A stretch of 64,000 nucleotides of DNA from an uncultured Pelagibacteraceae bacterium. Lineage in GTDB: Bacteria; Pseudomonadota; Alphaproteobacteria; Pelagibacterales; Pelagibacteraceae. The position numbers and the translations under genes were made by a program. The stretch spans positions 27,594 through 91,593 of the forward strand of contig CAJQRF010000003.1 of assembly GCA_905612235.1 (NCBI GenBank), read 5' to 3'. Under the pieces are notes generated by a model that ran no database searches, had not been told where the DNA came from, and saw only the letters and a program-made list of their open reading frames with translations. Shown piece after piece: positions 23,080 to 43,669 of this stretch. Within the stretch, counting starts at the first letter, position 1. Every line of letters starts with the position of its first letter.

Positions 23080-24285
23080 TTATTTTATTATGTTGTGTTC
23101 TGGTCCAAAAGGAAATTTTGTAATATCTTCAGTGCTATTTTCTTTAACTACAAGAATATCGTGCTCTCGATAACCACCAGCCCCCGGTTTTCCTTCAGGA
23201 ATTAAAATCATAGGCTCCATAGAAACAACCATGTTCTTTTCCAAAATTGTTTCTACATCTTCTCTAAGTTCAAGCTTACCTTCCCGTCCATAGTAATGAC
23301 TTAATACTCCGAATGAATGTCCGTAACCAAAAGTACGGTATTGAAGATATCCAAGTTCAGCAAATAATTCATTTAACTCTGCAGTAATTTCTGAACATTT
23401 TGCTCCTGGTTTAATAAGTTCTATTCCTCTTTTATGAACTTTTACATTTGCTTCCCAAGCTTTTAAAGAAGCATCATTAGCTTCTCCAACAAAAAGTGTT
23501 CTTTCTAAAGCAGTATAATATCCAGAAATCATAGGAAAGGTATTAAGAGAAAGTATGTCTCCATAACCAAGTTTTCTAGTAGTTGCTGGATTATGAGCTC
23601 CATCTGTATTAATTCCAGATTGAAACCAAACCCATGTATCTCTTAATTCAGAATGAGGATGAAACTTAACTATAGCTTTTTCCATAGCATCGCGTCCGGC
23701 CATAGCAATATCTATTTCGGACACACCAACCTTAATTTCTTTTACTAAAGCCTCCCCACCAATATCAGCAATTTTCGCACCACTGGTTATTAAAGCAATC
23801 TCTTCTTCAGATTTAATCATTCTTTTCATCATCACCATGGGAGCAATGTCAATTAATTCAGTATCACCCAGAACATCTTTTAAATTTTTGTATCGTTCTA
23901 AAGTTAAATGGTCATTTTCAACACCTACTCTTTTTACATTTTTTAAAAGATAAATAATTGCTTTTAAATAATTATCTCTTTGCCAGTCTGTATAAATCAA
24001 ATTTTCTCCATAACATCTTCTCCATGGTTGACCCGCATCAATGTTTGCTGAAATAACTATATTACTTTTAGAAGTGACTATGCATGCATAAGGTCTACCA
24101 AAAGAACAATATAAAAATCCAGAGTAGTAAGCTATATTGTGCATAGAAGTTAAAATAACAGCATCAAGATTTTTTTTAGAAATTATATCCCGCAGGCTCT
24201 TTAGTCGATTTTCGTATTCATTGTCTGTAAAAGGAAGTTGAGCTTTAGATCCATTTTTAAGTTGAAAAAAATTTGGTCTCTCCAT
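23080..24285 (-). CDS. Creatinase-like (creatine amidinohydrolase) M24-family protein
   Basis: HNIAYYSGFLYCSFGRPYA, SANIDAGQPWRRCYGENLIYTDWQRDNY, DTWVWFQSGINTDGAHNPATTRKLGYGDILSLNTFPMISGYYTALERTLF, YRTFGYGHSFGVLSHYYGRE, VVSMEPMILIPEGKPGAGGYREHDIL; near-continuous resemblance to Pseudomonas creatinase as recalled. Confidence 0.85.
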   Translation of the reverse strand: MERPNFFQLKNGSKAQLPFTDNEYENRLKSLRDIISKKNLDAVILTSMHNIAYYSGFLYCSFGRPYACIVTSKSNIVISANIDAGQPWRRCYGENLIYTDWQRDNYLKAIIYLLKNVKRVGVENDHLTLERYKNLKDVLGDTELIDIAPMVMMKRMIKSEEEIALITSGAKIADIGGEALVKEIKVGVSEIDIAMAGRDAMEKAIVKFHPHSELRDTWVWFQSGINTDGAHNPATTRKLGYGDILSLNTFPMISGYYTALERTLFVGEANDASLKAWEANVKVHKRGIELIKPGAKCSEITAELNELFAELGYLQYRTFGYGHSFGVLSHYYGREGKLELREDVETILEKNMVVSMEPMILIPEGKPGAGGYREHDILVVKENSTEDITKFPFGPEHNIIK

Positions 24286-24414
24286 TGAAATTCCTTAAAT
24301 AATTGAGTTAATGCTTGAAAAACTAGCATAAAAATTTTGCTAACTCTATTTTAAAATTATTGCATTATATCTCTACCTTATTTAAGATAAACATATCAAG
24401 CGATACATAACTCG

Positions 24415-24427
24415 TCGTAAATTACGA
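24415..24427. promoter_or_regulatory. Candidate operator in the divergent promoter region
   Basis: Perfect odd palindrome TCGTAA-A-TTACGA between the divergent creatinase-like and LLM genes. Confidence 0.4.
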
Positions 24428-24471
24428 AAGTGGGATCGGTCGACTTTAAAATTACTTTAAAGGAGCTGATA

Positions 24472-25638
24472 ATGAAATTTGGATATTTTTGTAACACTAC
24501 TAATTGGACAAACAAACCTCATACTGAAATTTTGGACGAAGCTAGAGATATTGCTAAATACTGCGATGCAAATAACTGGAATTCTATATGGTTTACTGAA
24601 CATCATTTTAATCATGAAGGCATGGAAGCATGTCCAAACCCACTAATGATGTGCACAGATATTGCTGCAAGAACAAAACAAATAAGATTAGGGCAAGCTT
24701 GCAATACTATAACTTTTTGGAACCCAATTAGATTAGCAGAAGATATAGCGACTCTGGATCATCTTTCTAATGGAAGAGTTGAAGTTGGAATTGGCAGAGG
24801 TGTTTATGGAAGAGAGGCTGTGCATTTAAATGTAGAAGCAGATTTAAAAGACCAAGCAAAAAACAAAAGGCTGTTCCAAGAAACTTTGTTAATAATGAAA
24901 AAAGCTTGGACAGAAAAATTTTTTAATCATAAAGGGGAATTTTATGTTTACCCTTCTCCAAATTACGTTTGGCAGCATGACATGAGTCCACCTAATAAAG
25001 AAACTGTGGATCTAAAAACTAATGAAATAAAAAAAATCAGCGTTATCCCGCAGCCTTATCAAAAACCTCATCCTCCTATAACGCAAGTTGTTGATTCGGT
25101 TAGTTCAATTGAATGGGCGGCAAAAAATGGAATTAATTGTATTATGTGGATACCAACTGTAAAAACTTTAAAGAAACGATTTGAAGTTTACAAGAATGCA
25201 AAATCTGAGACAGAAAAAAGAGATGTGCCTATGGGGGAAGGAATTACTTTAGTTAGAGATATGTTTGTTGCTGAAACAATGGAGGATGCAAAAAAATTAG
25301 CAGGGGAACACATGGTCAATTATATGAAATGGGTTTGCCATTGGAGAGGGTTGGGAAATCATATGGATCCTAACGAAGATCTGCCTGTGACTAAAGGTAA
25401 AACAGATTTATTAAATTATGAATTTTTACATAAAAGAAATATGCTATTTGGAACTCCTGAGTATGTAGTAGAAAAAATAAAAGAATTACAATCAGAGTTA
25501 AATCTTAAAGATCTACTTGTTTGGTCTAATTTTCCAGGAGTTAAGCATGAGGATGCACTAAGAAGTATAAAACTTTTTAATGAAGAGGTAATGCCAAAAA
25601 TTAGCGTGGATAAACAAAATATTAAACGTGCAAGCTAA
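24472..25638 (+). CDS. LLM-class (luciferase-like) flavin-dependent monooxygenase
   Basis: KFGYFCNTTNW, WFTEHHFNHEGM..CPNPLMMCTDIAARTKQIRLGQACNTITFWNPIRLAEDIATLDHLSNGRVEVGIGRG; likely start ATG at 24472 after GGAG. Confidence 0.9.
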   Translation: MKFGYFCNTTNWTNKPHTEILDEARDIAKYCDANNWNSIWFTEHHFNHEGMEACPNPLMMCTDIAARTKQIRLGQACNTITFWNPIRLAEDIATLDHLSNGRVEVGIGRGVYGREAVHLNVEADLKDQAKNKRLFQETLLIMKKAWTEKFFNHKGEFYVYPSPNYVWQHDMSPPNKETVDLKTNEIKKISVIPQPYQKPHPPITQVVDSVSSIEWAAKNGINCIMWIPTVKTLKKRFEVYKNAKSETEKRDVPMGEGITLVRDMFVAETMEDAKKLAGEHMVNYMKWVCHWRGLGNHMDPNEDLPVTKGKTDLLNYEFLHKRNMLFGTPEYVVEKIKELQSELNLKDLLVWSNFPGVKHEDALRSIKLFNEEVMPKISVDKQNIKRAS

Positions 25639-25639
25639 T

Positions 25640-26230
25640 ATGGATTTAAAACTTAGAAAATTTTCAAAATTTGTAGATAAGACTTTCATCGAAGGTGGTA
25701 AAGTAGCTAAAGAACCTGTTTTGCTTGTTTCTGTTGCTGCAGTCATTAAAAATCCTTGGTCTGAAGAAGATTTTGTTGAAGATTTAAAACCAACAATATT
25801 AGATTTAGCTCCAAAACTTGGTGATATTCTGGTTCCAGAATTAATAAAAGAAATAGGTTCGCCTGAAAAAATTTTAGCTTATGGAAAAGCTGGAGTTGTA
25901 GGACTGTCTGGTGAAATTGAACATGCGTCTGCTTTTATTCACACTCTAAGATTTGGAAATAAATTTAGAGATGCAGTTGGTGGAACTTCTTATTTAAGTT
26001 TTACAAACATACGAGGACCTGCTGGTTGCAAAATATCTATCCCAATGATGCATAAAACAGATTCAGGTTTAAGACCTTATTATTTAACACATGAATTTAC
26101 TATTCATGATGCTCCTTGTAATGATGAAATTGTAATAGCTATTGGTGGATCCTCTAGTGGAAGAGCGCACGCTAGAACTGGTGACCGCTATCAAGATATG
26201 AAAGAAATGGGAATAAAAAATACTAAATAA
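25640..26230 (+). CDS. PF06684/DUF1185 'amino acid synthesis' family protein
   Basis: MDLKLRKFSKFVDKTFIEGGKVAKEPVLLVSVAAVIKNPW..., KAGVVGLSGEIEHASAFIHTLRFGNKFRDAVGG, GGSSSGRAHARTGDRYQDMKEMG. Confidence 0.8.
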   Translation: MDLKLRKFSKFVDKTFIEGGKVAKEPVLLVSVAAVIKNPWSEEDFVEDLKPTILDLAPKLGDILVPELIKEIGSPEKILAYGKAGVVGLSGEIEHASAFIHTLRFGNKFRDAVGGTSYLSFTNIRGPAGCKISIPMMHKTDSGLRPYYLTHEFTIHDAPCNDEIVIAIGGSSSGRAHARTGDRYQDMKEMGIKNTK

Positions 26231-26256
26231 TTTTAATTTTTAATAGAGATTCACTT

Positions 26257-27045
26257 ATGTCAAATACTTCAGATTCATTTGAAACATACTATAAATATAA
26301 TAAAGTCAATAAGAAAGACCCCATAATATTTATACATGGCATTGGTCTAAATCATGAAATTTGGGAAGATCAAATCAATTATTTTAAAAAATATAACACA
26401 ATTGTTTATGATTTAATTGGTCATGGAAAAACACCTTTTAATAAAAAAACATTAAGTATGAATGATTTTACCAAACAATTACTGAGGTTAGCTGATGGTT
26501 TAAATATAAATAAATTTCATTTAATTGGTTTTTCATTAGGATCACTTATTGCTAGAGACTTTGCGTCCTTATATAGCGATAGATTAAGCACACTAACAAT
26601 TTTTGGTACCGTATATAAAAGATCAGAAGATGAAAAAAGACAGATACTTAATAGGTATGCACTGATGAAACTTAAAAAAGATGTTACTAAAAAAAGAGCT
26701 GTATATAGATGGTTTACAGAAAAATTTATTAGTAAAAATCCTCTAATCTATAAAAAAATATACTCAATGTTAATAAATACCAATCACGAAACATGGTTAA
26801 AAATATATAAACTATTTGTTCATCATGAGGATGATGATGATAAAATAAAAAAAATTACAGCCAATACTCTTGTGGTGACTGGAAGAGATGACATAGGATC
26901 AAAACCTAAAATGAGTGAGGAAATAAGCAAATTAATTCCGGTAAGCCTTTGTAAAATAATAGAAAAAGGTAAACATCTTTGTAATATAGAGTGTTCAGAA
27001 AATTTTAATATAACAATCAAAGAATTTATTGACGATAATGACTAA
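26257..27045 (+). CDS. Alpha/beta hydrolase
   Basis: IIFIHGIGLNHEIW, GFSLGSLIARDFA nucleophile elbow, LVVTGRDD, GKHLCNIE. Confidence 0.9.
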   Translation: MSNTSDSFETYYKYNKVNKKDPIIFIHGIGLNHEIWEDQINYFKKYNTIVYDLIGHGKTPFNKKTLSMNDFTKQLLRLADGLNINKFHLIGFSLGSLIARDFASLYSDRLSTLTIFGTVYKRSEDEKRQILNRYALMKLKKDVTKKRAVYRWFTEKFISKNPLIYKKIYSMLINTNHETWLKIYKLFVHHEDDDDKIKKITANTLVVTGRDDIGSKPKMSEEISKLIPVSLCKIIEKGKHLCNIECSENFNITIKEFIDDND

Positions 27046-28519
27046 GCTTAAAGAATATAAAATGTTTATTGATGGAGAGTGGATAGACTCTGAGAGTAAA
27101 AAAACATTTGAAACTTTAAATCCTGAAAATAATGAACCTTGGGCAAAAGTGCCTGAAGCAAGTGCTAAAGATGTCAATAAAGCTGTCAAAGCTGCACAAA
27201 AAGCTTTTGAAGGTGAGTGGCCTAAACTATTACCAAGAGAGCGAGGCAAGTTCCTAAGAGCAATAGGAAATCAGTTACGAGAAAATGCTGAACTATTAGG
27301 AAAAATTGAAACCATAGATACTGGAAAATTATTTAGGGAAACGAAAAAACAAGCAAACTATATTGCGGAGTATTATGATTACTATGCTGGAATGGCAGAT
27401 AAAGTTGAAGGCGCTGTTCTACCAATTGATAAACCAAATACTCAAGTAATAACAACTAGAATACCCATTGGAGTGATTGCTGCAATTATTCCTTGGAATT
27501 CCCAAATGCTTTTAACCGCAACAAAATTAGCGCCAGCATTAGCAATGGGCAATACTGTCGTAATTAAATCTTCAGAGTTAGCTCCTGCCGTAATGTTTGA
27601 ATTTGCAAAATTGATAGAAAAAACCGGTATCCCAAAAGGAGTTGTAAATGTTATTTCAGGTTTTGGTGACCCATGTGGAAAAGCTTTAACCACACATAAT
27701 CTAGTTGAAAAAATTGCCTTTACAGGAGGACCGGATGCCGCAAGAAATATAATTAGAAATTCTGCAGAAAATTTATCTGAAGTTAGCTTAGAACTTGGAG
27801 GCAAAAGTCCAGTTGCTGTTTTTGAAGACGCAGATCAAGAAAATGCAATTAATGGGATAACTGCTGGAATATTTGGCGCTAGTGGTCAAAGTTGTATTGC
27901 TGGTTCAAGATTATATATACAAAATAGTATTTATGATGAATTTTTAGATAAGTTGTCAATTCGTGCTGAAAAAATTAAGATTGGTGCGCCCATGAATGCT
28001 GATACAGAAATGGGGCCACTCAGTAATTTTAAGCAATTAGAAATAATAGAGAAAAATATCAAGCTTACTGTTGATCAAGGAGGAAAAATAAAATGTGGAG
28101 GTAAAAGGCATTCTTTTTCAAATAAAGGCTATTATTTTCCACCTACAATTATTGAATGTGAAAACCATAATCTTCCTGCTGCCGAAAATGAACTTTTTGG
28201 TCCAGTTCTTTCAGTAATGAAATTCAATGACGAAGCCGAAGTTGTGAATAAAATGAATGATAACCAGTATGGCTTATCTTCGGGTATTTACACAAAAGAT
28301 CTTGGTAGAGGCCTTAGAGTTTCAAAAGCAATTCGAGCAGGAATTACTTTTGTTAATACTTACAGATTAATTTCACCATCCGCACCTTTTGGTGGAATAA
28401 AAGATAGTGGTTACGGTAAAGAAGCTGGGGTTGAATCTATTAAGGATTATACAAGAGTAAAAACAGTTTGGTTCCATACTTCTGATAAACCAACCCAAGA
28501 TCCATTTTCAATGCGATAA
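27038..28519 (+). CDS. Aldehyde dehydrogenase
   Basis: IIPWNSQ, ELGGKSPV, FGASGQSCIAGSR (catalytic Cys), PFGGIKDSGYGKEAGVE. Confidence 0.95.
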   Translation: MTKLKEYKMFIDGEWIDSESKKTFETLNPENNEPWAKVPEASAKDVNKAVKAAQKAFEGEWPKLLPRERGKFLRAIGNQLRENAELLGKIETIDTGKLFRETKKQANYIAEYYDYYAGMADKVEGAVLPIDKPNTQVITTRIPIGVIAAIIPWNSQMLLTATKLAPALAMGNTVVIKSSELAPAVMFEFAKLIEKTGIPKGVVNVISGFGDPCGKALTTHNLVEKIAFTGGPDAARNIIRNSAENLSEVSLELGGKSPVAVFEDADQENAINGITAGIFGASGQSCIAGSRLYIQNSIYDEFLDKLSIRAEKIKIGAPMNADTEMGPLSNFKQLEIIEKNIKLTVDQGGKIKCGGKRHSFSNKGYYFPPTIIECENHNLPAAENELFGPVLSVMKFNDEAEVVNKMNDNQYGLSSGIYTKDLGRGLRVSKAIRAGITFVNTYRLISPSAPFGGIKDSGYGKEAGVESIKDYTRVKTVWFHTSDKPTQDPFSMR

Positions 28520-28619
28520 AGGCAAATCAACCTTATAAATAAAAGAAATTTTCCCATTGAAAAATAAAGTCTAACAGTAAATACTCTATATATTAATAAT
28601 ATTATTAAAGAGGGGAAAT

Positions 28620-29801
28620 ATGAAAAAACTATTTATAGCTGCAATTATGTCTTTGTCATTATTATCGACAAGCACATTTGCAGAAATCAAAATGGGAATT
28701 ATTTTAGGATTTACTGGTCCTATTGAATCTCTAACTCCAGCAATGGCAGCCTCAGCAGAATTAGCTTTTAAAGAAGCTTCTGATTCAGGTTCTTTGCTAG
28801 GCGGAGAAACGATTAAACCTTTAAGAGCAGATTCAACTTGTGTTGATTCAGCTGCCGCAACTACTGCTGCAGAGGGATTAATTTCACAAGGAGTTGCTGC
28901 AATTATGGGAGCAGATTGTTCTGGTGTTACTGGAGCGATTGCAAGTAATGTTGCGGTACCAAAAGGTGTAGTTATGATTTCACCTTCAGCAACGTCACCT
29001 GGTTTAACTACATTAGATGATAAAGGTTTCTTTTTTAGAACAGCTCCATCTGATGCACGTGGTGGCCAAATTCTTGCTGACATTACTAAAGACAGAGGAA
29101 TTACAAGTGTTGCAATCACGTACACGAATAATGACTATGGCAAAGGTTTAGCTGATGTTTACACAGCAGCAGTAAAAGCTCATGGTATTAAAGTTACAAC
29201 AGTAGCGGCTCACGAAGATGGTAAAGCTGACTATAGCTCAGAAGTTGGAGTATTAGCTTCTGCAGGTGGAGATGCTGTTGCAGTGATTGGATATCTTGAC
29301 CAAGGTGGTAAAGGAATTATTCAAGGATCTTTAGATTCTGGTGCCTTTGATAAATTTATATTATCAGATGGTATGATTGGAGATGCTCTTACAGACACTT
29401 TTGGAAAAAGCTTAAACAAATCATTTGGTTCTTTACCAGGTTCGACAGGTAAAGGCGCTGGAGTGTTTAAAAAAGTTGGTAAAGCAGCTGGAATTGACTC
29501 TTCTGGTCCATACACTGGAGAATCATATGACGCAGCAGCTTTAATCGTACTTGCGATGCAAGCTGGTAATTCTGCTGACCGTGGTTCGATTGCTAAGAAT
29601 GTAATGGCTGTAGCTAATGGTCCGGGAACAAAAATCTATCCTGGTCAATTAAAAAAAGCTCTAGACCTTTTAGCTAAAGGAAAAGCAGTTGATTACGAAG
29701 GAGCAACTGGTGTTACCTTTACAGATGTTGGAGAAGCTGTTGGTTCTTTTTTAGAAAAAGAAGTTAAAGGCGGCAAGTTTAAAACTAAAACACAAAGATA
29801 A
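28620..29801 (+). CDS. LIV-type ABC transporter substrate-binding protein
   Basis: Signal peptide, KMGIILGFTGPIES..., ISPSATSPGLTTLDDKGFFFRTAPSD. Confidence 0.85.
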   Translation: MKKLFIAAIMSLSLLSTSTFAEIKMGIILGFTGPIESLTPAMAASAELAFKEASDSGSLLGGETIKPLRADSTCVDSAAATTAAEGLISQGVAAIMGADCSGVTGAIASNVAVPKGVVMISPSATSPGLTTLDDKGFFFRTAPSDARGGQILADITKDRGITSVAITYTNNDYGKGLADVYTAAVKAHGIKVTTVAAHEDGKADYSSEVGVLASAGGDAVAVIGYLDQGGKGIIQGSLDSGAFDKFILSDGMIGDALTDTFGKSLNKSFGSLPGSTGKGAGVFKKVGKAAGIDSSGPYTGESYDAAALIVLAMQAGNSADRGSIAKNVMAVANGPGTKIYPGQLKKALDLLAKGKAVDYEGATGVTFTDVGEAVGSFLEKEVKGGKFKTKTQR

Positions 29802-29849
29802 TAATAAATTTATAAACCTCAGCGGTGAAAACTGCTGAGGTTTTTTTAT
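29796..29849 (+). repeat. Copy A of a 54-nt repeat (last codon, stop, terminator)
   Basis: AGATAATAATAAATTTATAAACCTCAGCGGTGAAAACTGCTGAGGTTTTTTTAT; two mismatches to 31432..31485. Confidence 0.9.
29814..29848 (+). terminator. Intrinsic terminator after the binding-protein gene (repeat copy A)
   Basis: AAACCTCAGCGGTGAAAACTGCTGAGGTTTTTTTA. Confidence 0.9.
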
Positions 29850-30006
29850 TTCATAAGTTTAATAAACTTAAATTTTTCTTACTTTTCTGGTCGATTTAAT
29901 TGAATTAATAAGATTATAATCTAAAATAGTGCTAATTTAACTTTCATCATAATTAAAAAATGAGTACAATTTCATTACTTGAAACTAATAATTAAAGAGG
30001 GAGATT

Positions 30007-31437
30007 ATGAATAAAATTAAAAGTAGAGATAGACGTCTTTATAACAAAGACCTAGCTCCTACTGACCCAAAAGACAAAACTTGGGGTTGGTTTGAAATCT
30101 TTAATGTTTGGGCAAACGATGTACAAAGTTTATTTGGTTATACTTTGGCTGCATCTTTGTTCTTAACATATGGATTAAACGGCTGGGCAGTGTTCTTAGC
30201 AATAATTCTTGCTGGGTTTTTTATAATGTGGTTAGTAAACCTTTCAGGAAAACCAAGTGTCAAACTTGGAATTCCTTACCCAGTATTTGCACGCGCAAGT
30301 ATGGGGGTTATTGGTGCAAACTTTCCGGCAATGGTAAGAGGTATTGTTGCAATGTTCTGGTATGGTGCTCAAACATATTTTGCATCTACAGCTGTTGCGC
30401 TTTTACTCACAAGTCTATCTGGATCAGATGGTGGAAGTGATGTCTTCTTAGGAATGAATGGCATCGACTGGATATCATTTATATTTGTTGCAGGTTTTCA
30501 AGTTTATTTATTCTGGCAAGGTATTGATCTTATCAGAAAATTTTTAAACTTTGCGGGTCCTGCAGTTTATGCTGTTATGATTGTTTTAATGTTAGTAATC
30601 TGGGCGAAAGCTGGCGGAAGCCTTCTTTCAGAGGTTGGTAATATTTTCTCTGGGGTTGGTAGTTACAGCGGTGGATCATTTGCTGCTTTCCTAGCAATTT
30701 TTGGAACTATGGTTGCATATTTTGCTGCTGTAGTAATTAATTTTGGTGACTTTTCAAGATTTGTAAAAAATGAAAAAGAAATGAGAAAAGGAAACCTTTG
30801 GGGTTTGCCTGGAAACATTTTCTTATTCTCTTTTATAGCTTTGATGGTTACTGCTGGAACAGTTTCAGTATTTGGAGAGGCTATAACTAGTCCTACAGAT
30901 ATGGTTGCCCGTGTTGGTAATCTAGGACTTACAGTTATTGCTGCTTTCGCATTCTTTGCGGCTACAATTGGAATCAATATGGTGGCAAACTTTATCCCAC
31001 CAGCTTATGACCTAGCAAATCTTATGCCAAGCAAGATCAACTTTAAAATGGGTGGTTTAATTACAGCCATAGTAGGTTTTGTTATTGGTGCATTATGGGT
31101 TTCATTTATAAGTAAAGTTGGAATGTTTCCTTTTGTAAATACACTAGGAGCTATTCTTGCGCCAGTTTATGGAATAATGATTGTTGATTATTACGTAATT
31201 AAAAAACAAAGAATTGACATTAATCAATTATTTTCTTCTAAAAAAGGCGGCAAGTATTACTACAATGACGGCTGGAACCAAAAAGCTTTCGTTGCTTGGG
31301 GTATAGCAGGTGTATTCTCAGTTCTTACTGTTTGGCATCCTTCACTATCAGGCTTAGGTGGTTATGCTTGGATAATTGGTGCAGCTCTTGGAACAGCTCT
31401 ACATCTTATACTTTCAGGGAAAAAAAGTAGAAGATAA
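30007..31437 (+). CDS. NCS1 family nucleobase/allantoin/hydantoin-type cation symporter
   Basis: NKDLAPTDPKDKTWGWFEIFNVWANDVQSLFGYTLAASLF, GIPYPVFARASMGVIGANFPAMVRGIVAMFWYGAQT, INFGDFSRF. Confidence 0.9.
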   Translation: MNKIKSRDRRLYNKDLAPTDPKDKTWGWFEIFNVWANDVQSLFGYTLAASLFLTYGLNGWAVFLAIILAGFFIMWLVNLSGKPSVKLGIPYPVFARASMGVIGANFPAMVRGIVAMFWYGAQTYFASTAVALLLTSLSGSDGGSDVFLGMNGIDWISFIFVAGFQVYLFWQGIDLIRKFLNFAGPAVYAVMIVLMLVIWAKAGGSLLSEVGNIFSGVGSYSGGSFAAFLAIFGTMVAYFAAVVINFGDFSRFVKNEKEMRKGNLWGLPGNIFLFSFIALMVTAGTVSVFGEAITSPTDMVARVGNLGLTVIAAFAFFAATIGINMVANFIPPAYDLANLMPSKINFKMGGLITAIVGFVIGALWVSFISKVGMFPFVNTLGAILAPVYGIMIVDYYVIKKQRIDINQLFSSKKGGKYYYNDGWNQKAFVAWGIAGVFSVLTVWHPSLSGLGGYAWIIGAALGTALHLILSGKKSRR

Positions 31438-31485
31438 TATTAAATTTATAAACCTCAGCGGTGCAAACTGCTGAGGTTTTTTTAT
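31432..31485 (+). repeat. Copy B of the 54-nt repeat; includes the intrinsic terminator of the NCS1 gene
   Basis: AGATAATATTAAATTTATAAACCTCAGCGGTGCAAACTGCTGAGGTTTTTTTAT. Confidence 0.9.
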
Positions 31486-31487
31486 AT

Positions 31488-32249
31488 CTAAAAATTACTA
31501 ATTACTTTAATAATTCCAAATATTGAGATAATAATAAGAAAATAAAAAACAAATTTTCTATAAGTTTCTTTCCTACTTTTAATAAATAACTTATTACCAA
31601 TGGCAATGCCTAATGGTAAAACGATAACTAACGGTATAGTTCTATAGATAGTTGTTAAATCTACAATTCCTCCAAAAAAACTTAAAATAAAAGCATAGAT
31701 GTCTGTTAAGAAAAACAAGGCAGCTAAAGAACCTCTTATAATGATCGGCTGAATATTAATGACAAGCAGAAAAACAGCTACTGGCATACCTCCTAACGTT
31801 GTGAGACTATTAATTGTTCCTGAGACCATCCCAGTAAAAATTCTAACTGGATTTATATTAAGTTTTTGATTTGAATATCCTTTCATTAAAATCATAGAAA
31901 AGAAAATAATGATTAAACAAATTGATAGATGAGTGACGTCAGGTGATAAAAATTTTAATAAATAAAGACCAATAGGAGAACCAATTATAATTCCAATCTG
32001 CATCTGAAAAACGAATTTCCAATCAATCTTATTCCAAATGTAAGGAATCATAAAAATACTTACTAAAACCTCTAAAATTAAAATTATAGGAACAATTTCT
32101 ATGGCTGGAAGTATGAATGAAAAGCCCGAAATACATACCGCAGAAAAACCAAAGCCATTAAACCCTCTGATTATTGAAGCGATAAATACTGTAAAAATAA
32201 TTATGGATACTTCAGTTATGCTTAACTGAAAATAAGATAAAAAATCCAT
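31488..32249 (-). CDS. TauE/SafE (DUF81) family membrane permease
   Basis: FIASIIRGFNGFGFSAVCISGFSFILP, MVSGTINSLTTLGGMPVAVFLL. Confidence 0.85.
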   Translation of the reverse strand: MDFLSYFQLSITEVSIIIFTVFIASIIRGFNGFGFSAVCISGFSFILPAIEIVPIILILEVLVSIFMIPYIWNKIDWKFVFQMQIGIIIGSPIGLYLLKFLSPDVTHLSICLIIIFFSMILMKGYSNQKLNINPVRIFTGMVSGTINSLTTLGGMPVAVFLLVINIQPIIIRGSLAALFFLTDIYAFILSFFGGIVDLTTIYRTIPLVIVLPLGIAIGNKLFIKSRKETYRKFVFYFLIIISIFGIIKVISNF

Positions 32250-36295: not shown

Positions 36296-37666
36296 CTAGA
36301 TATGCTTAATTTTCTCCGGCAAAATACCTTTGGGTCTATATCTCATAACTAATAATAGAGCTATTCCCATTACTAGCAACCTGAAATAAGGAATGGTATT
36401 TATCAAATGTAGCCTTAAAGCATTTGTTTCTTCTAAGCCACTTGTAAATAAATTAATTAAAAACAAAGAAGCTGGCGCAGCTTCAATCCATAGAAACCAA
36501 ACGGCAAAACCTCCTAAGATTGCTCCAAAATTATTTCCACTACCACCAACTATTACCATTACCCAGATTAAAAAAGTATATCGCATTGGTCTATAGCTGC
36601 CTGGCGTAAATAGACCATCGTATGTAACCATCATTGCTCCCGCTATTCCCACCACAGCCGAACCAAGAACAAAAATTAAAAGATGTTGTTTTACTACATT
36701 TTTACCCATTGCATTTGCTGCTTCATCGTTGTCTCGAATAGCCCTCATCATTCTACCCCACGGTGAATAAAGAGCTTTTTGTGTAACAATTAATAAAATT
36801 ATTACCACGATTGAAAAAAGACCTGCATAACACAATTTGACAAATACTGTAGAGCCATCAATGACTAGTTGTTTTAATAATTGCTCTCTTTCTAAAAGAT
36901 CAATAACTAAATTTAAAGCTCCCTGATTAAATTTTTCAACTAAATTAATAAACCACTGTGTAGTTTGAAGCTCAATTTCATAAGGCACTGGTCTTTTTAA
37001 ACCAATAACATTTTTAACTCCTCGAGTTAACCAATCTTCGTGTTTTATTACAGCTATTACAATTTCTGAAATTAATAGTGTTGCTATTGCTAGATAGTCT
37101 GCGCGTAATCCCAGTGCAATTTTGCCTATTACATAAGCCAATGCTCCAGCAAAAAAAGCTCCAACAATCCACGAAAATAAAATTGGTAGACCCATTCCTC
37201 CTAAGAAACCAGTTGTTGCTGGATTAACAGCTTCTATCAAATGAATTGCTGGACCAGATATTAATCTTATAAAAATAATTCCTACTATTATAACCAAGGC
37301 AATTATATAATTTCTGTTGCTCGATTTTTTATATTTGTTGAGAATAAAGCGAACAATAAATACTATAGAAGTAATTATTAATGCACATATAACTATTTTT
37401 AATCCACCTACTTGCCAAGCTTCCTTAACTGGGGGAACTGAAACTAAAACAGCTGCAAGACCACCTAATGCGGTGTATCCCATAATTCCAAAATTAATTA
37501 GCCCTGCATACCCCCATTGAATATTAGCTCCCATTGTCATTACCGCTGAAATTAAGCAAAAACATAAAATTGATAAAGCCATACTCCAAGACTGTAAAAA
37601 ACCCACTAGAATTATAAGTCCTAACATTATTGCATAAGCACTAATAATATTTGAGTATTGCTTCAT
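36296..37666 (-). CDS. LIV-type ABC transporter permease (LivM-like)
   Basis: NIQWGYAGLINFGIMGYTALGG, SPWGRMMRAIRDNDEAANAMGKNV, MMVTYDGLFTPGSYRPMRYTFLIWVMVIVGGSGNNFGAILG. Confidence 0.9.
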   Translation of the reverse strand: MKQYSNIISAYAIMLGLIILVGFLQSWSMALSILCFCLISAVMTMGANIQWGYAGLINFGIMGYTALGGLAAVLVSVPPVKEAWQVGGLKIVICALIITSIVFIVRFILNKYKKSSNRNYIIALVIIVGIIFIRLISGPAIHLIEAVNPATTGFLGGMGLPILFSWIVGAFFAGALAYVIGKIALGLRADYLAIATLLISEIVIAVIKHEDWLTRGVKNVIGLKRPVPYEIELQTTQWFINLVEKFNQGALNLVIDLLEREQLLKQLVIDGSTVFVKLCYAGLFSIVVIILLIVTQKALYSPWGRMMRAIRDNDEAANAMGKNVVKQHLLIFVLGSAVVGIAGAMMVTYDGLFTPGSYRPMRYTFLIWVMVIVGGSGNNFGAILGGFAVWFLWIEAAPASLFLINLFTSGLEETNALRLHLINTIPYFRLLVMGIALLLVMRYRPKGILPEKIKHI

Positions 37667-38673
37667 ATTATTTTACCTTTAAAAATGCCCGAGGGCCTAA
37701 ATAACAAAACAATTACCAATATTGAAAAAGAAACTGCAAACTTGTAGTCGGTTGAGAGCAGCTGTAACAAACCATCAGGTTCTAAACTTTCTGGGAGAAT
37801 ATAAATAAAAAACTTTTTATATGCATAAGTTATAAGTATTTCTGAGAAAGCGATAACATACCCACCTAAGAAAGCTCCAAAAGGATTTCCAATTCCCCCA
37901 ACAATTGCTGCGGCAAATATTGGAAGCATATTATTAAAATAAGTAAATGGTTTAAAACTTTTATCTAAACCATAAAGAGTTCCACCAATTGTTGCTAAAA
38001 TTGCAGCAATGACCCAAGTAATCATAACTACTTTTTTAGGATCTATTCCAGATAAAAGTGCTAAATCTTCATTATCTGAATAAGCACGCATGCTTTTTCC
38101 AGTTTTTGTTTTATTCAAAAACCAAAATAAAATAGAAACAACAATAATTGTGACCAACAAAGTAATGACCTGTGTTGATTTGATTGTTAATCCTTCATTC
38201 AAACCTGTCATTTCTTTAAATTCATTTGCTTTTAAAATAAACTTTTCTCCATCAAAAAATCTTCTATCAAAAGGTCCAATAACTATTCTTACAATTGCTT
38301 GGGTAACAAACATTGTTCCTATACTCACCATCGCAAGCATCACAGGTGGGCTTTTTTTCGTACGATAATAACTGAAAACTAATTTATCCTTAGCAAGGAC
38401 GTATAATATTGTAATAATAACACCAAAAGGGATTGCGAGTAATGCAGTGGGAAGGACACCTAAGTTAATTCCAAGGGATTGGAAATACCACGTAAACAAA
38501 ATTGTAAACATGGTGCCAAACGACATGAGATCACCAGCCGTAAAATAAGCAAATCTCAAAATACCATAAATTAAAGAAACAAAAATGGCACCTAATGCTA
38601 ATTGCGAGCCATAAGATAATGCAGGCACAAATATATAATTTAAAAGTAAAACTATTGAATTTATAAAATCCAT
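37663..38673 (-). CDS. LIV-type ABC transporter permease (LivH-like)
   Basis: LALGAIFVSLIYGILRFAYFTAGDLMSFG, SMRAYSDNEDLALLSGIDPKKV, FAAAIVGGIGNPFGAFLGG. Confidence 0.9.
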   Translation of the reverse strand: MDFINSIVLLLNYIFVPALSYGSQLALGAIFVSLIYGILRFAYFTAGDLMSFGTMFTILFTWYFQSLGINLGVLPTALLAIPFGVIITILYVLAKDKLVFSYYRTKKSPPVMLAMVSIGTMFVTQAIVRIVIGPFDRRFFDGEKFILKANEFKEMTGLNEGLTIKSTQVITLLVTIIVVSILFWFLNKTKTGKSMRAYSDNEDLALLSGIDPKKVVMITWVIAAILATIGGTLYGLDKSFKPFTYFNNMLPIFAAAIVGGIGNPFGAFLGGYVIAFSEILITYAYKKFFIYILPESLEPDGLLQLLSTDYKFAVSFSILVIVLLFRPSGIFKGKII

Positions 38674-38674
38674 A

Positions 38675-39382
38675 TTAACCTCCTAAAAAAGAGCTTCTTA
38701 CTCTTGGGTCATTCAATAATTCTTTTCCCGTTCCTGAATATTTATTCTCACCTGTAACTAACACGTACCCTCTGTCTGATATACTTAATGCTTGTTTTGC
38801 ATTTTGCTCAACCATTAAAATAGCTACATTTGTTTTTTTAACTTTTAAAATATGATCAAATAGTTCATCCATAACAATTGGAGAAACTCCAGCCGTAGGT
38901 TCATCAAGCATTAAGACGGATGGCTTTATCATCAATGCTCTACCCAATGCTACTTGCTGTCTTTGACCACCAGACAGCTCACCAACAATCTGAGATTTTT
39001 TTTCTTTTAAAATGGGAAACAATTCATAAATTTCATTAATGATTTCTTGAAGATTTTCATCTCTTAAAAAAGCACCCATCTCTAGATTTTCCTCAACACT
39101 TAATCCAGCAAATACGTTTTTAGTTTGTGGAACAAATGATATTCCTTGTTTAACTCTATCTTGTGGGTTTAAATGCGAAATATCTTTACCGTCTATAATA
39201 ACTTTTCCTGATTTAAGATTTAATAAACCTAACATAGCTTTCATTGCTGTAGATTTACCAGCTCCGTTTGGGCCAATTATAGAAACTATTTCACCTTGAT
39301 TAACATTTACTGAACAAGAAGAAATTATATCAGGTCCATCATCATAACCTCCTGTCATTTTTACTCCTTCGAAAAACGCCAT
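38675..39382 (-). CDS. LIV-type ABC transporter ATP-binding protein (LivF-like)
   Basis: GPNGAGKST, LSGGQRQQVALGRAL, VLMLDEPTAGVSP. Confidence 0.92.
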   Translation of the reverse strand: MAFFEGVKMTGGYDDGPDIISSCSVNVNQGEIVSIIGPNGAGKSTAMKAMLGLLNLKSGKVIIDGKDISHLNPQDRVKQGISFVPQTKNVFAGLSVEENLEMGAFLRDENLQEIINEIYELFPILKEKKSQIVGELSGGQRQQVALGRALMIKPSVLMLDEPTAGVSPIVMDELFDHILKVKKTNVAILMVEQNAKQALSISDRGYVLVTGENKYSGTGKELLNDPRVRSSFLGG

Positions 39383-39387
39383 TAATT

Positions 39388-40176
39388 TTAATCCTTTATT
39401 TTAGATCCTCTACCTAAATAACTTTCTATAACTTTCTCATCTTTTTTAACTTCGTCAGGAGTGCCTTCAAATAAAACAGAGCCTTCAGCCATTACAATTA
39501 CTGGATTGCACAACCGGCTAATAAATTCCATATCATGTTCAATCATACAAAAAGTGTATCCTTGTTCTTTGTTTAATCTCAATATTGCACTGCCAATATC
39601 TTTTAAAAGAGTTCGATTAACTCCAGCACCGACCTCGTCTAATAAAACTAACTTTGCATCAACCATCATGGTTCTACCTAGCTCTAATAATTTTTTTTGT
39701 CCTCCAGATAAATTTCCCGCAAGTTCATTTGAAAGATGTTTTAAATTTAAAAAGTCAATTACCTTTAAAGCTTTTGTTTTAATTTTAATTTCTTCTTCTT
39801 TAACAAGTCTTGGTTTAAATAATGCATTAACCAAATTTTCACCAGACTGGTTTCCTGGAACCATCATTAAGTTTTCTAAAACTGTAAGATGTGTAAACTC
39901 ATGTGCAATTTGAAAAGTTCTTAAAACACCTTTTGAAAACAATTCATAAGAAGGAACATCCGTAATATCTTCATCATTAAATAAAACTGCTCCCTTTGAT
40001 GATTTTAAATTTCCAGCAATTAAATTAAATAATGTTGTTTTACCTGAACCATTGGGTCCAATAATTCCTGTGATAGAACCCCTTTTTATTTTTAAAGAAC
40101 AATCAGATACAGCCGCAAGACCTCCAAAGTATTTTGAAAGATTGTCTACTTGCAGAATATTTGGATCTGACACCAT
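39388..40176 (-). CDS. LIV-type ABC transporter ATP-binding protein (LivG-like)
   Basis: GPNGSGKTT, LSGGQKKLLELGRTMM, LVLLDEVGAGV. Confidence 0.92.
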   Translation of the reverse strand: MVSDPNILQVDNLSKYFGGLAAVSDCSLKIKRGSITGIIGPNGSGKTTLFNLIAGNLKSSKGAVLFNDEDITDVPSYELFSKGVLRTFQIAHEFTHLTVLENLMMVPGNQSGENLVNALFKPRLVKEEEIKIKTKALKVIDFLNLKHLSNELAGNLSGGQKKLLELGRTMMVDAKLVLLDEVGAGVNRTLLKDIGSAILRLNKEQGYTFCMIEHDMEFISRLCNPVIVMAEGSVLFEGTPDEVKKDEKVIESYLGRGSKIKD

Positions 40177-40182
40177 AGAAAA

Positions 40183-40953
40183 TTATACTTTATTTAATCT
40201 ATTGAGAATACTATTAAGCGATTTTTCTAAAGACTTGTAATAACCAGATTTCCTAAGTTCTTTGACGCCTTGTTCATTAAGTCCACCAGAAGTTTGAGAT
40301 TCAGCAACCAAGTGCATTAAATTTTTTTTTGATTTAATTGCCGAGTCTTCTGACAAAGCAATAAACAAAGAGGTTATATACTTTTGAGCTTTATCTCTTT
40401 TAATTCCTCTTTTTACAAGCCAGTCAGCTTGAACCTTCAACATTTCATAAAATGGAGCCATCATACCTGACATAGACCAAAAGCTATTTGATAATTTTTC
40501 ACTTTTAATCTCTATCGTTGTTCCAATTTTATCAAAAAAACTCTTTACTTGATTGTTTGGTGGACAAATAGGAACTGGTCCCTTCCCTATTGAAATAGGT
40601 GGCAAAGGTATGGCTCTAACAATTTTAACTTTCTTATTAATAAATTTTTTTAATTGAGCTAATTTAATTGTAGATATAAAACTAATTATTTTTTGATTAG
40701 AACTAAACTTTAATTTGGGTATTATTTGTTCACCAATTTTTGGAGTAACTGCTAAAAAAATCCAATTGCATTTATCAACAATTTCTTGATTAGTTTTTGC
40801 TATAGAAACTTTTTTAAACTTTTTACTTAATTTTAACGCTTTACTCTTATTTCTTGGAGAAACTAATATTTTTTTAAATGCAATTTTAGAACCACAAATT
40901 CCATTTACAACTGCTACGGTAATATTACCTGTTCCAATAAATCCTAGTTTCAT
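40183..40953 (-). CDS. Pyrroline-5-carboxylate reductase-like NAD(P)-binding protein
   Basis: MKLGFIGTGNITVAVVNGI, SPRNKSKALKLSKKFKKV, WIFLAVTPKIGEQIIPKL, HLVAESQTSGGLNEQGVKEL. Confidence 0.8.
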   Translation of the reverse strand: MKLGFIGTGNITVAVVNGICGSKIAFKKILVSPRNKSKALKLSKKFKKVSIAKTNQEIVDKCNWIFLAVTPKIGEQIIPKLKFSSNQKIISFISTIKLAQLKKFINKKVKIVRAIPLPPISIGKGPVPICPPNNQVKSFFDKIGTTIEIKSEKLSNSFWSMSGMMAPFYEMLKVQADWLVKRGIKRDKAQKYITSLFIALSEDSAIKSKKNLMHLVAESQTSGGLNEQGVKELRKSGYYKSLEKSLNSILNRLNKV

Positions 40954-42029: not shown

Positions 42030-43103
42030 ATGAAGAGAGTATTAATACTTTTTTCTTTTTTTATATGCTTCTCTAATAATGTATACGCACAGGAATTCAA
42101 ACTTGAAAAGATAGTTGATGGATTGGATGAGCCATGGAGCTTATCTTTTATTGATGAAGAAAATATACTTTTCACTGAAAAGCCAGGAAAATTATTTTCA
42201 CTAAATTTAAAAAATAAAAAAATTTCTGAAATTAAACATAATTTAAAAGTATTAGAATACGGTCAAGGTGGATTGCTAGATGTTTTGTTCAAAGATCAAG
42301 ATGTTTATATTTCTTACACTGAAAATAGAGGTAATTGGACTACGAGCACTTCAGTAGCAAAAGGTAAATTAAATCAAGATAATATTCAATTTAAAAATAT
42401 CTTTAGAGCTGAACCTCCAATAGACTCTAAGTATCATTTTGGCTCAAGATTAGTAATAAAAGATAAATATCTTTTTATAACTGCAGGTGAAAGAGGCCAA
42501 GGTATGATAGCGCAAGACCCAACTAAACATCCAGGTAGTATCATTAGAATAAATTTAGACGGATCTATTCCAAAAGATAATCCAAAGTTTAAACACAAAG
42601 ATAAAAAAGATTGGTTGTCTGAAATATTTCAGATAGGTGTTAGAAATCCACAAGGAATAGCCTTATCACCCTTCGATGATAAAGTTTACCTTAGTAATCA
42701 TGGAGCTAAAGGTGGAGATTGGTTTGGAACAGCAAATTTTGGTGAAAATTATGGATGGAAAATTTTAGGCTGGGGAGGAACTAATTATACAGGAACAAAA
42801 ATTGGACCTAAATGGAAAAAAGGATTCACGAAGCCAATAAAATATTGGCTTCCTTCAATAGCAGTAAGTGCAATTTTAATTTATAAAGGAAATGAATTTA
42901 AAGAATGGAATGGAGATGCACTAATAACTTCATTAAAAGATAAATCTCTACGAAAAATCAAGTTTAAGGCTGCTGAATTGGTTGATGAAGAAATTATTTT
43001 TAAAGATGCAATTGGCAGAATTAGAGATATAAAGATACAAAATGAAACTGGGGAAATTTATCTATTAACTGATGATGGTTCTCTTTGGAGAATGTATAAA
43101 TGA
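42030..43103 (+). CDS. PQQ-dependent sugar dehydrogenase / soluble aldose dehydrogenase-like secreted protein
   Basis: Signal peptide; GLDEPWSLSFID, HFGSRLVIKDKYLFITAGERG, GVRNPQGIALSP, NHGAKGGDWFGTANFGENYGWK. Confidence 0.85.
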   Translation: MKRVLILFSFFICFSNNVYAQEFKLEKIVDGLDEPWSLSFIDEENILFTEKPGKLFSLNLKNKKISEIKHNLKVLEYGQGGLLDVLFKDQDVYISYTENRGNWTTSTSVAKGKLNQDNIQFKNIFRAEPPIDSKYHFGSRLVIKDKYLFITAGERGQGMIAQDPTKHPGSIIRINLDGSIPKDNPKFKHKDKKDWLSEIFQIGVRNPQGIALSPFDDKVYLSNHGAKGGDWFGTANFGENYGWKILGWGGTNYTGTKIGPKWKKGFTKPIKYWLPSIAVSAILIYKGNEFKEWNGDALITSLKDKSLRKIKFKAAELVDEEIIFKDAIGRIRDIKIQNETGEIYLLTDDGSLWRMYK

Positions 43104-43669
43104 AAAAAATATTTATTATATATGGACACTATGATGACAAATCTTTTAATGCCTCAATTAAAAATACCTTTATAGAAACGGTAAAAGAAAATGGTCATAA
43201 AGTTGATTGTGTAGATCTCTATAAAGAAAAATTTGATCCAGTTTTTACAGGTGGAGAACCGGGTGAGGATGTGCTTGATCATCGTAAAAGAATAGATAGT
43301 TCAGATATAATTGTTTTAATAGCGCCAATTTGGAATTTCAGAATGCCAGCTATCGTAGAAGGATGGATAGATAAAGTTCTATCTCCACCATGGGCCTTTA
43401 CTTTTAAAAGACTATTTGGAAATTATGGTTATCCGAAAGGCAACTTAAAAGATAAGAAAGCAGTAATATTTTGTACTTATGGTTCGCCAAGATTAGCAAT
43501 AACAACTTTTTTTTTAAACTTACCTATTCGGAGACTTAAGCGTGGTGTATTTTATATCTGTGGGATTACAAATATTTTATATAGAAGATATTTTGCGGTA
43601 CCTTTCGTGAGTGATGAGGAAAGAAAAGGGTTTTTAGAAGATGTTAAAAAAACTGCTAAAAATCTTTAA
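43100..43669 (+). CDS. NAD(P)H dehydrogenase (quinone)-like flavodoxin-fold protein
   Basis: IIYGHYDDKSFNASI, HKVDCVDLYKEKFDPV, LIAPIWNFRMPAIVEGWIDKVLSPPWAF. Confidence 0.85.
   Translation: MKKIFIIYGHYDDKSFNASIKNTFIETVKENGHKVDCVDLYKEKFDPVFTGGEPGEDVLDHRKRIDSSDIIVLIAPIWNFRMPAIVEGWIDKVLSPPWAFTFKRLFGNYGYPKGNLKDKKAVIFCTYGSPRLAITTFFLNLPIRRLKRGVFYICGITNILYRRYFAVPFVSDEERKGFLEDVKKTAKNL

Follow-up and report, generated by a model that had tools for sequence, protein, structure and literature searches.

A movable four-gene catabolic cassette of SAR11 bacteria and its kinship with the trigonelline operon

Genes and features of the locus

This report concerns a window of 64,000 nucleotides (the whole stretch of DNA that was analysed) from an uncultured Pelagibacteraceae (SAR11) bacterium (GenBank assembly GCA_905612235.1, contig CAJQRF010000003.1, positions 27,594 to 91,593 of the forward strand). 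Within it lies a compact set of four genes, here called the cassette, encoding a luciferase-like (LLM-class) monooxygenase, a PF06684 protein, an alpha/beta hydrolase (ABH), and an aldehyde dehydrogenase (ALDH) (Table 1). The host genome measures 835 kb and is 62% complete, and its nearest named relatives are SAR11 single-cell and metagenome assemblies. A first-pass annotation had placed these genes in a six-gene arm, together with a binding protein and an NCS1 permease, transcribed divergently from a creatinase-like operon. All six genes exist, with the families, order, and divergence as described, but only the first four (24472-28519) form one unit. With the starts refined (ATG at 25640 for PF06684 and at 27038 for the ALDH), the LLM and PF06684 genes are 1 bp apart and the PF06684 and hydrolase genes 26 bp, and the hydrolase and ALDH genes overlap. 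Beyond the ALDH gene, on the other hand, the spacing widens: 100 bp separate it from the binding-protein gene, and a further 205 bp, which include a strong terminator, lie between that gene and NCS1; NCS1 is an insertion and the binding protein occurs independently of the LLM.

The PF06684 protein reaches 209 bits against a Pfam gathering score of 27. Catalytic residues are intact, namely the hydrolase triad Ser93/Asp212/His240 (by alignment) and the Cys and Glu motifs of the ALDH (GQSC/ELGG), and Glu43-His44-His45 of the LLM is invariant. The hydrolase diverges much faster than its partners, with 75% versus 93-95% identity in the nearest relative (L032) and 50-55% versus 82-91% in other relatives. 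In one SAR11 genome the LLM frame is broken (L045 5307-6480, the same as L156), reflecting either decay or an assembly error. Rfam and tRNA scans gave no match.

Table 1. Features of the window, with selected genes of related loci
Feature	Position	Strand	Evidence
LLM-class monooxygenase, 388 aa (cassette oxygenase)	24472..25638	+	PF00296, E 2e-42
PF06684 (DUF1185, "amino acid synthesis") protein, TgnF-like, 196 aa	25640..26230	+	Pfam, E 5e-62
Alpha/beta hydrolase, in place of TgnD, 262 aa	26257..27045	+	Abhydrolase_1 PF00561, E 1e-23
Aldehyde dehydrogenase, TgnC-like, 493 aa	27038..28519	+	Aldedh PF00171, E 8e-160
Intergenic region, 186 bp, between cassette and divergent CreA-EutA-DoeA-Pot arm	24286..24471		
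Peripla_BP_6 binding protein (neighbour only)	28620..29801	+	E 6e-27
71-bp direct repeat, left copy (end of binding-protein gene and terminator)	29795..29865		
Intrinsic terminator after binding protein	29814..29843	+	13-pair stem and T tract
NCS1 permease, purine/allantoin-type (neighbour only)	30007..31437	+	PF02133, E 4e-79
71-bp direct repeat, right copy (bracketing NCS1)	31431..31501		
Flavodoxin-fold protein, candidate flavin/quinone reductase	43100..43669	+	PF02525, 119 bits; PF03358, 43 bits
Arm-head genes, examples	window 23080-24285; L036 6948-8054; L032 12000-13112		
ThDP enzymes, examples	L046 7768-9459; L048 7758-9455; L084 11167-12867		

Co-inheritance and mobility

Loci related to the window were gathered by scanning a genome collection with the LLM alignment and keeping the best 80. 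Of the SAR11 loci that extend 5.5 kb or more beyond the LLM on its downstream side, all 52 carry LLM, PF06684, ABH, and ALDH in this order. Across 60 relative genomes the LLM is present in 20 and PF06684 in 22, with both in 18 (Fisher test, p 1.2e-9). Of the six mismatches, four are clearly located at the end of a contig; G055 and G056, the remaining two, probably are as well, given a truncated match and a contig-edge position. Co-conservation of the four families across genomes, which the first-pass annotation had suggested looking for, is thus plainly there.

When neighbourhoods of PF06684 are compared in relatives over regions of up to 20 kb, the same LLM-PF06684-ABH-ALDH block recurs with varying flanking genes. 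It adjoins an acyl-CoA dehydrogenase on one contig of genome G020 (L044) and a formate-tetrahydrofolate ligase in G029 (L038). On another contig of G020 (L175), the binding protein adjoins an AGAT-EutA-DoeA-Pot arm with no cassette in between, and the cassette is likewise absent from this site in G014 (L174). Since the cassette occupies several chromosomal sites and empty sites exist, it moves as a unit.

In 45 of the 52 SAR11 loci a thiamine diphosphate (ThDP) enzyme is found between LLM and PF06684; the window copy does without it. This enzyme resembles sulfoacetaldehyde acetyltransferase, with a score below the cut-off. Separately, some SAR11 genomes hold a second, distant pair of LLM and alpha/beta hydrolase genes adjoining a major facilitator superfamily gene (L084 19033-20844 and L088 12008-13819), which is another candidate for ring opening.

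Kinship with the trigonelline operon

The first-pass annotation had likened the LLM and hydrolase to RutA and RutD. The Rut pathway (RutABCDEFG) does share an LLM-fold oxygenase and an alpha/beta hydrolase that open a nitrogen ring, but its other families are not in the cassette. The RutA model is absent among the 23 NCBIfam matches and the RutD model reaches 74 bits against a cut-off of 238.5, and the analogy was rejected on these scores. The full LLM/PF06684/ABH/ALDH set is found instead in the trigonelline (tgn) operon, known as tgnABCDEF from Acinetobacter baylyi. According to Perchat et al. (2018), TgnA/TgnB reportedly cut the ring to an N-methylformamido lactone, after which TgnC oxidises and TgnD hydrolyses. 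A role of TgnA/TgnB in ring opening of trigonelline is also described in PMC8269262. Moreover, TgnF of the A. baylyi operon has been named as a PF06684 homolog in a paper on coumarin degradation (PMC7913881); PF06684, for which the earlier annotation saw no firmly established reaction, does have a context.

On a plasmid of Acinetobacter sp. PK01 (L169), annotated with tgnA, tgnB, and tgnC, the order is PF06684-ABH-tgnA-tgnB-tgnC-NCS1, with SSADH and CMD genes further on, and clusters homologous to the operon occur in Rhizobium/Sinorhizobium. Two of the window proteins are orthologous to members of this operon: the ALDH is 50.5% identical to annotated TgnC (against 33% to SSADH), and the PF06684 protein is 52% identical to its counterpart. 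In the ALDH tree the tgn enzymes nest among the cassette-type ALDHs with 98-99% support. The CMD-family gene, common to the tgn operon and distant cassette relatives, is 60-67% identical between the tgn record and the cassette-type loci L134 and L153. The hydrolase may be of the TgnD type: it is of the same fold family and its triad is intact, but it is 26% identical to the hydrolase of the annotated operon, and the tree gave it no firm placement.

The two systems differ in other respects. The window LLM falls in a clade apart from the TgnB types (support 99/96), where no clustering with a characterised enzyme of unrelated function, an outcome the earlier annotation had allowed for, was found. 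Gene order also differs, and the SAR11 cassette lacks an adjacent TgnA reductase and an adjacent SSADH, and often contains the extra ThDP enzyme. Judged from these sequence comparisons, the simplest account would be a single type of module in which the oxygenase has been exchanged. A further arrangement, the flavin reductase-ALDH-LLM-ABH-CMD cluster of Thalassospira and R. leguminosarum (L029, L030), uses the same families with a PF06684 gene nearby; unlike the cassette, it has a TgnB-type LLM (43% identical to TgnB) and an amino-acid ATP-binding cassette (ABC) transporter.

Related modules outside SAR11

Modules with an LLM of the same clade as the window enzyme occur in Bacillota, Acidimicrobiia, and other proteobacteria. 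Overall, the catabolic module is genuine, mobile, and spread across phyla, and it is a variant of the trigonelline type. Several of the modules outside SAR11 carry genes for flavin supply beside the LLM, as expected for a two-component flavin mononucleotide (FMN) monooxygenase: PF01613 flavin reductases or homologs (L066, L133, L139, L155), an FMN reductase of the PF03358 family in L154 and its homologs in L153 and L157, and a riboflavin-synthesis protein (L151 and homologs). The Bacillota gene content comprises LLM, PF06684, ABH, ALDH, a reductase, and a GntR regulator. A BCCT betaine transporter is linked to the module in five Bacillota loci and one gammaproteobacterial locus, which points to a zwitterionic or quaternary-ammonium substrate.

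The gammaproteobacterial locus L134 (10001-17632) reads LLM-ABH-RidA-ALDH-CMD-BKACE-BCCT-LysR, without PF06684; a RidA-family gene stands between ABH and ALDH, and a beta-keto acid cleavage enzyme (BKACE) has been added. The position of RidA here prompts the idea that PF06684 might be an analogue of the RidA fold. A structure search with the PF06684 model returned significant matches only to the DUF1185 entries 3byq and 2qtp.

Proposed working of the cassette

With moderate confidence, we read 24472-28519 as a mobile catabolic cassette of four genes that belongs to the trigonelline-operon type and in which the oxygenase has been exchanged, and infer from the comparisons above an order of reactions, a substrate class, a role for PF06684, and a source of reduced flavin. 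A host flavin reductase would supply reduced FMN (FMNH2), and the flavodoxin-fold protein listed in Table 1, the sole PF03358 match in the host genome, is a candidate for this task. The LLM would then use O2 to cut the ring of an N-methylpyridinium-type betaine, yielding an N-formyl enamide that carries an aldehyde. The TgnC-like ALDH would oxidise the aldehyde to a carboxylate and the hydrolase would cleave the enamide to formate and an amine, with PF06684 perhaps helping to deal with an unstable enamine/imine or semialdehyde at one of the steps. Oxidative opening of an N-heterocycle by the LLM, with hydrolase and ALDH, had already been suggested by the first-pass annotation; it was right in kind and is the best reading.

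Several observations weigh against this proposal. The window LLM is only 22% identical to TgnB and the hydrolase only 26% identical to that of the tgn operon, and it is precisely this low-identity pair that sets the ring chemistry. Many SAR11 copies add the ThDP enzyme, which the tgn pathway lacks, and five loci of the same LLM clade (L133, L134, L136, L137, L142) have no PF06684. No PF01613 reductase was found in the host genome or in 23 genomes of the genus, all of these genomes being partial. The AlphaFold2 model of the LLM (mean predicted local distance difference test score 86.5) has bacterial luciferase, RslO1, and a type II Baeyer-Villiger monooxygenase as its closest solved folds; the neighbours thus include Baeyer-Villiger enzymes and an epoxidase (for the reaction of RslO1, see PMC11354265), and the modelled fold, taken alone, would fit either ring opening or Baeyer-Villiger oxidation.

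Substrate and alternative explanations

Both the tgn kinship and the BCCT linkage lead us to favour an N-methylpyridinium-type betaine as the substrate. Homarine or a related N-methylpyridine betaine would be the likeliest marine candidate, preferred over trigonelline because of its abundance in seawater and the different oxygenase. Homarine is an abundant marine betaine, with concentrations of as much as 400 mM in Synechococcus; trigonelline is present in seawater but far scarcer (PMC8269262). The same paper argues, to the detriment of our proposal, that, on steric grounds, homarine is an unlikely substrate of TgnA/TgnB. It is possible, and we suggest it tentatively, that the distinct LLM clade (SAR11, other proteobacteria, Acidimicrobiia, and Bacillota) defines a pathway not yet described, in which the ring of a betaine different from trigonelline is opened. 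Such a pathway would have the ALDH and PF06684 of the tgn operon, and in most SAR11 copies the ThDP enzyme would add an extra carbon-carbon step.

The novelty of the cassette is a separate question, nested within the ring-opening proposal. Ferrer-Gonzalez et al. (2026, Nat Microbiol) are said to have named a homarine operon homABCDER, with SAR11 reportedly among the carriers. That operon and the proposed cassette would have the catabolism of a marine N-methylpyridine betaine in common, identity is possible, and the 2026 paper may already cover the cassette. The Bacillota set would suit five enzymes and a regulator, whereas the Thalassospira-type cluster (L029) and the second SAR11 LLM/ABH pair (L084, L088) could equally well be the hom genes; that the cassette represents the published operon as it occurs in SAR11, and so has already been described, is a possibility we rather doubt. 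The 2026 homarine pathway paper, as well as a link between N-methylglutamate dehydrogenase and homarine, is cited in PMC13390433.

Other chemistries compete with the ring opening of a homarine-like betaine. If the LLM were a type II Baeyer-Villiger monooxygenase acting on a ketone of an acyclic (carnitine-like) betaine, the hydrolase would split the resulting ester and the ALDH would oxidise the freed aldehyde. Monooxygenase and hydrolase are a classic pair for such a route, 3,6-diketocamphane monooxygenase is among the nearest folds and a near full-length sequence match, and L134 holds BKACE and a carnitine-antiporter-like BCCT on the same strand. However, BKACE is present in that one locus only, and the TgnC-type ALDH, PF06684, and CMD genes shared with the tgn operon are left unexplained, so that we consider this route unlikely. 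These same shared genes, together with the occurrence of trigonelline in seawater, could mean that the cassette degrades trigonelline itself through a non-orthologous oxygenase and hydrolase. Against this stand the scarcity of the compound in seawater, the existence of a full TgnB-type system that is already widespread on roseobacter and rhizobial plasmids, and a different LLM and hydrolase, which suggest another regiochemistry; the idea is decidedly unlikely. Highly improbable, finally, is a route that starts with uptake through NCS1 of a nucleobase, a hydantoin, or an allantoin-like ring, which the LLM would open in a Rut-like manner, coupled to the creatinase-like arm. NCS1 does lie downstream on the same strand, in several relatives the gene beside the binding protein is an NCS2 permease instead, and an acidimicrobial locus (L144) places EutA-like and M24 genes directly before the module. 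Yet a duplicated terminator brackets NCS1, a gene that the nearest relative lacks. Moreover, 24 relatives have the creatinase-like arm but no cassette, the empty site in L175 is intact, and the LLM has no relationship to RutA.

SAR11 ranks among the ocean's most abundant groups of bacteria. Homarine-type betaines, for which few degraders are known, are major metabolites of phytoplankton (PMC8269262, PMC8269247). As a defined set of four genes, the cassette would serve as a marker of the turnover of such betaines, and would also allow a direct test of the function of the PF06684 family, of which structures have been solved but not the biochemistry.

Neighbouring genes

The cassette is divergent from the M24/EutA/Pot arm. 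A DoeA-like gene of this arm is present in 43 of the 60 relatives, 24 of which are without the cassette (no association with LLM, p 0.14), and a single divergent regulon of both arms was rejected for SAR11 on co-occurrence and empty sites. The head of the EutA-DoeA-Pot arm varies in SAR11, being a creatinase-like M24 gene, a PF02274-type (amidinotransferase-like) gene, or both. The gene arrangement of the acidimicrobial locus (L144 306-6402) echoes the divergent arm of the window and is the one hint in favour of coupled arms.

The binding protein is found in 36 of the 60 relatives, in 20 cases without the cassette (no association with LLM, p 0.16), and adjoins a permease of the branched-chain amino acid type in most loci; its probable partners are the Liv-type ABC genes that lie convergent to it (36296-40953). 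Its terminator is conserved in relatives, with sequence changes, and a near-identical hairpin follows NCS1. The two 71-bp repeat copies around NCS1 are 89% identical, whereas the nearest relative (L032/L078) has a single copy, one terminator, and no NCS1. NCS1 is a separate, recent insertion, and from its bracketing the gene looks to have been gained by duplicating the region of the terminator.

Three permeases share 54-65% identity with the window NCS1, one beside an allantoate amidohydrolase, one beside a guanine deaminase/allantoicase, and a third without such a neighbour; the window NCS1 is not closely related to the NCS1 "cytosine permease" of the tgn operon. Given the bracketed insertion and kin near purine/allantoin genes, a role as dedicated importer of the cassette was rejected. 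As neither NCS1 nor the binding protein belongs to the cassette, the uptake of nucleobases, allantoin, or hydantoins that the first-pass annotation had tied to the LLM pathway is uninformative about the LLM substrate. Where the window has NCS1, several relatives carry an NCS2 xanthine-type permease after the binding protein (L036 13755-15077 and homologs).

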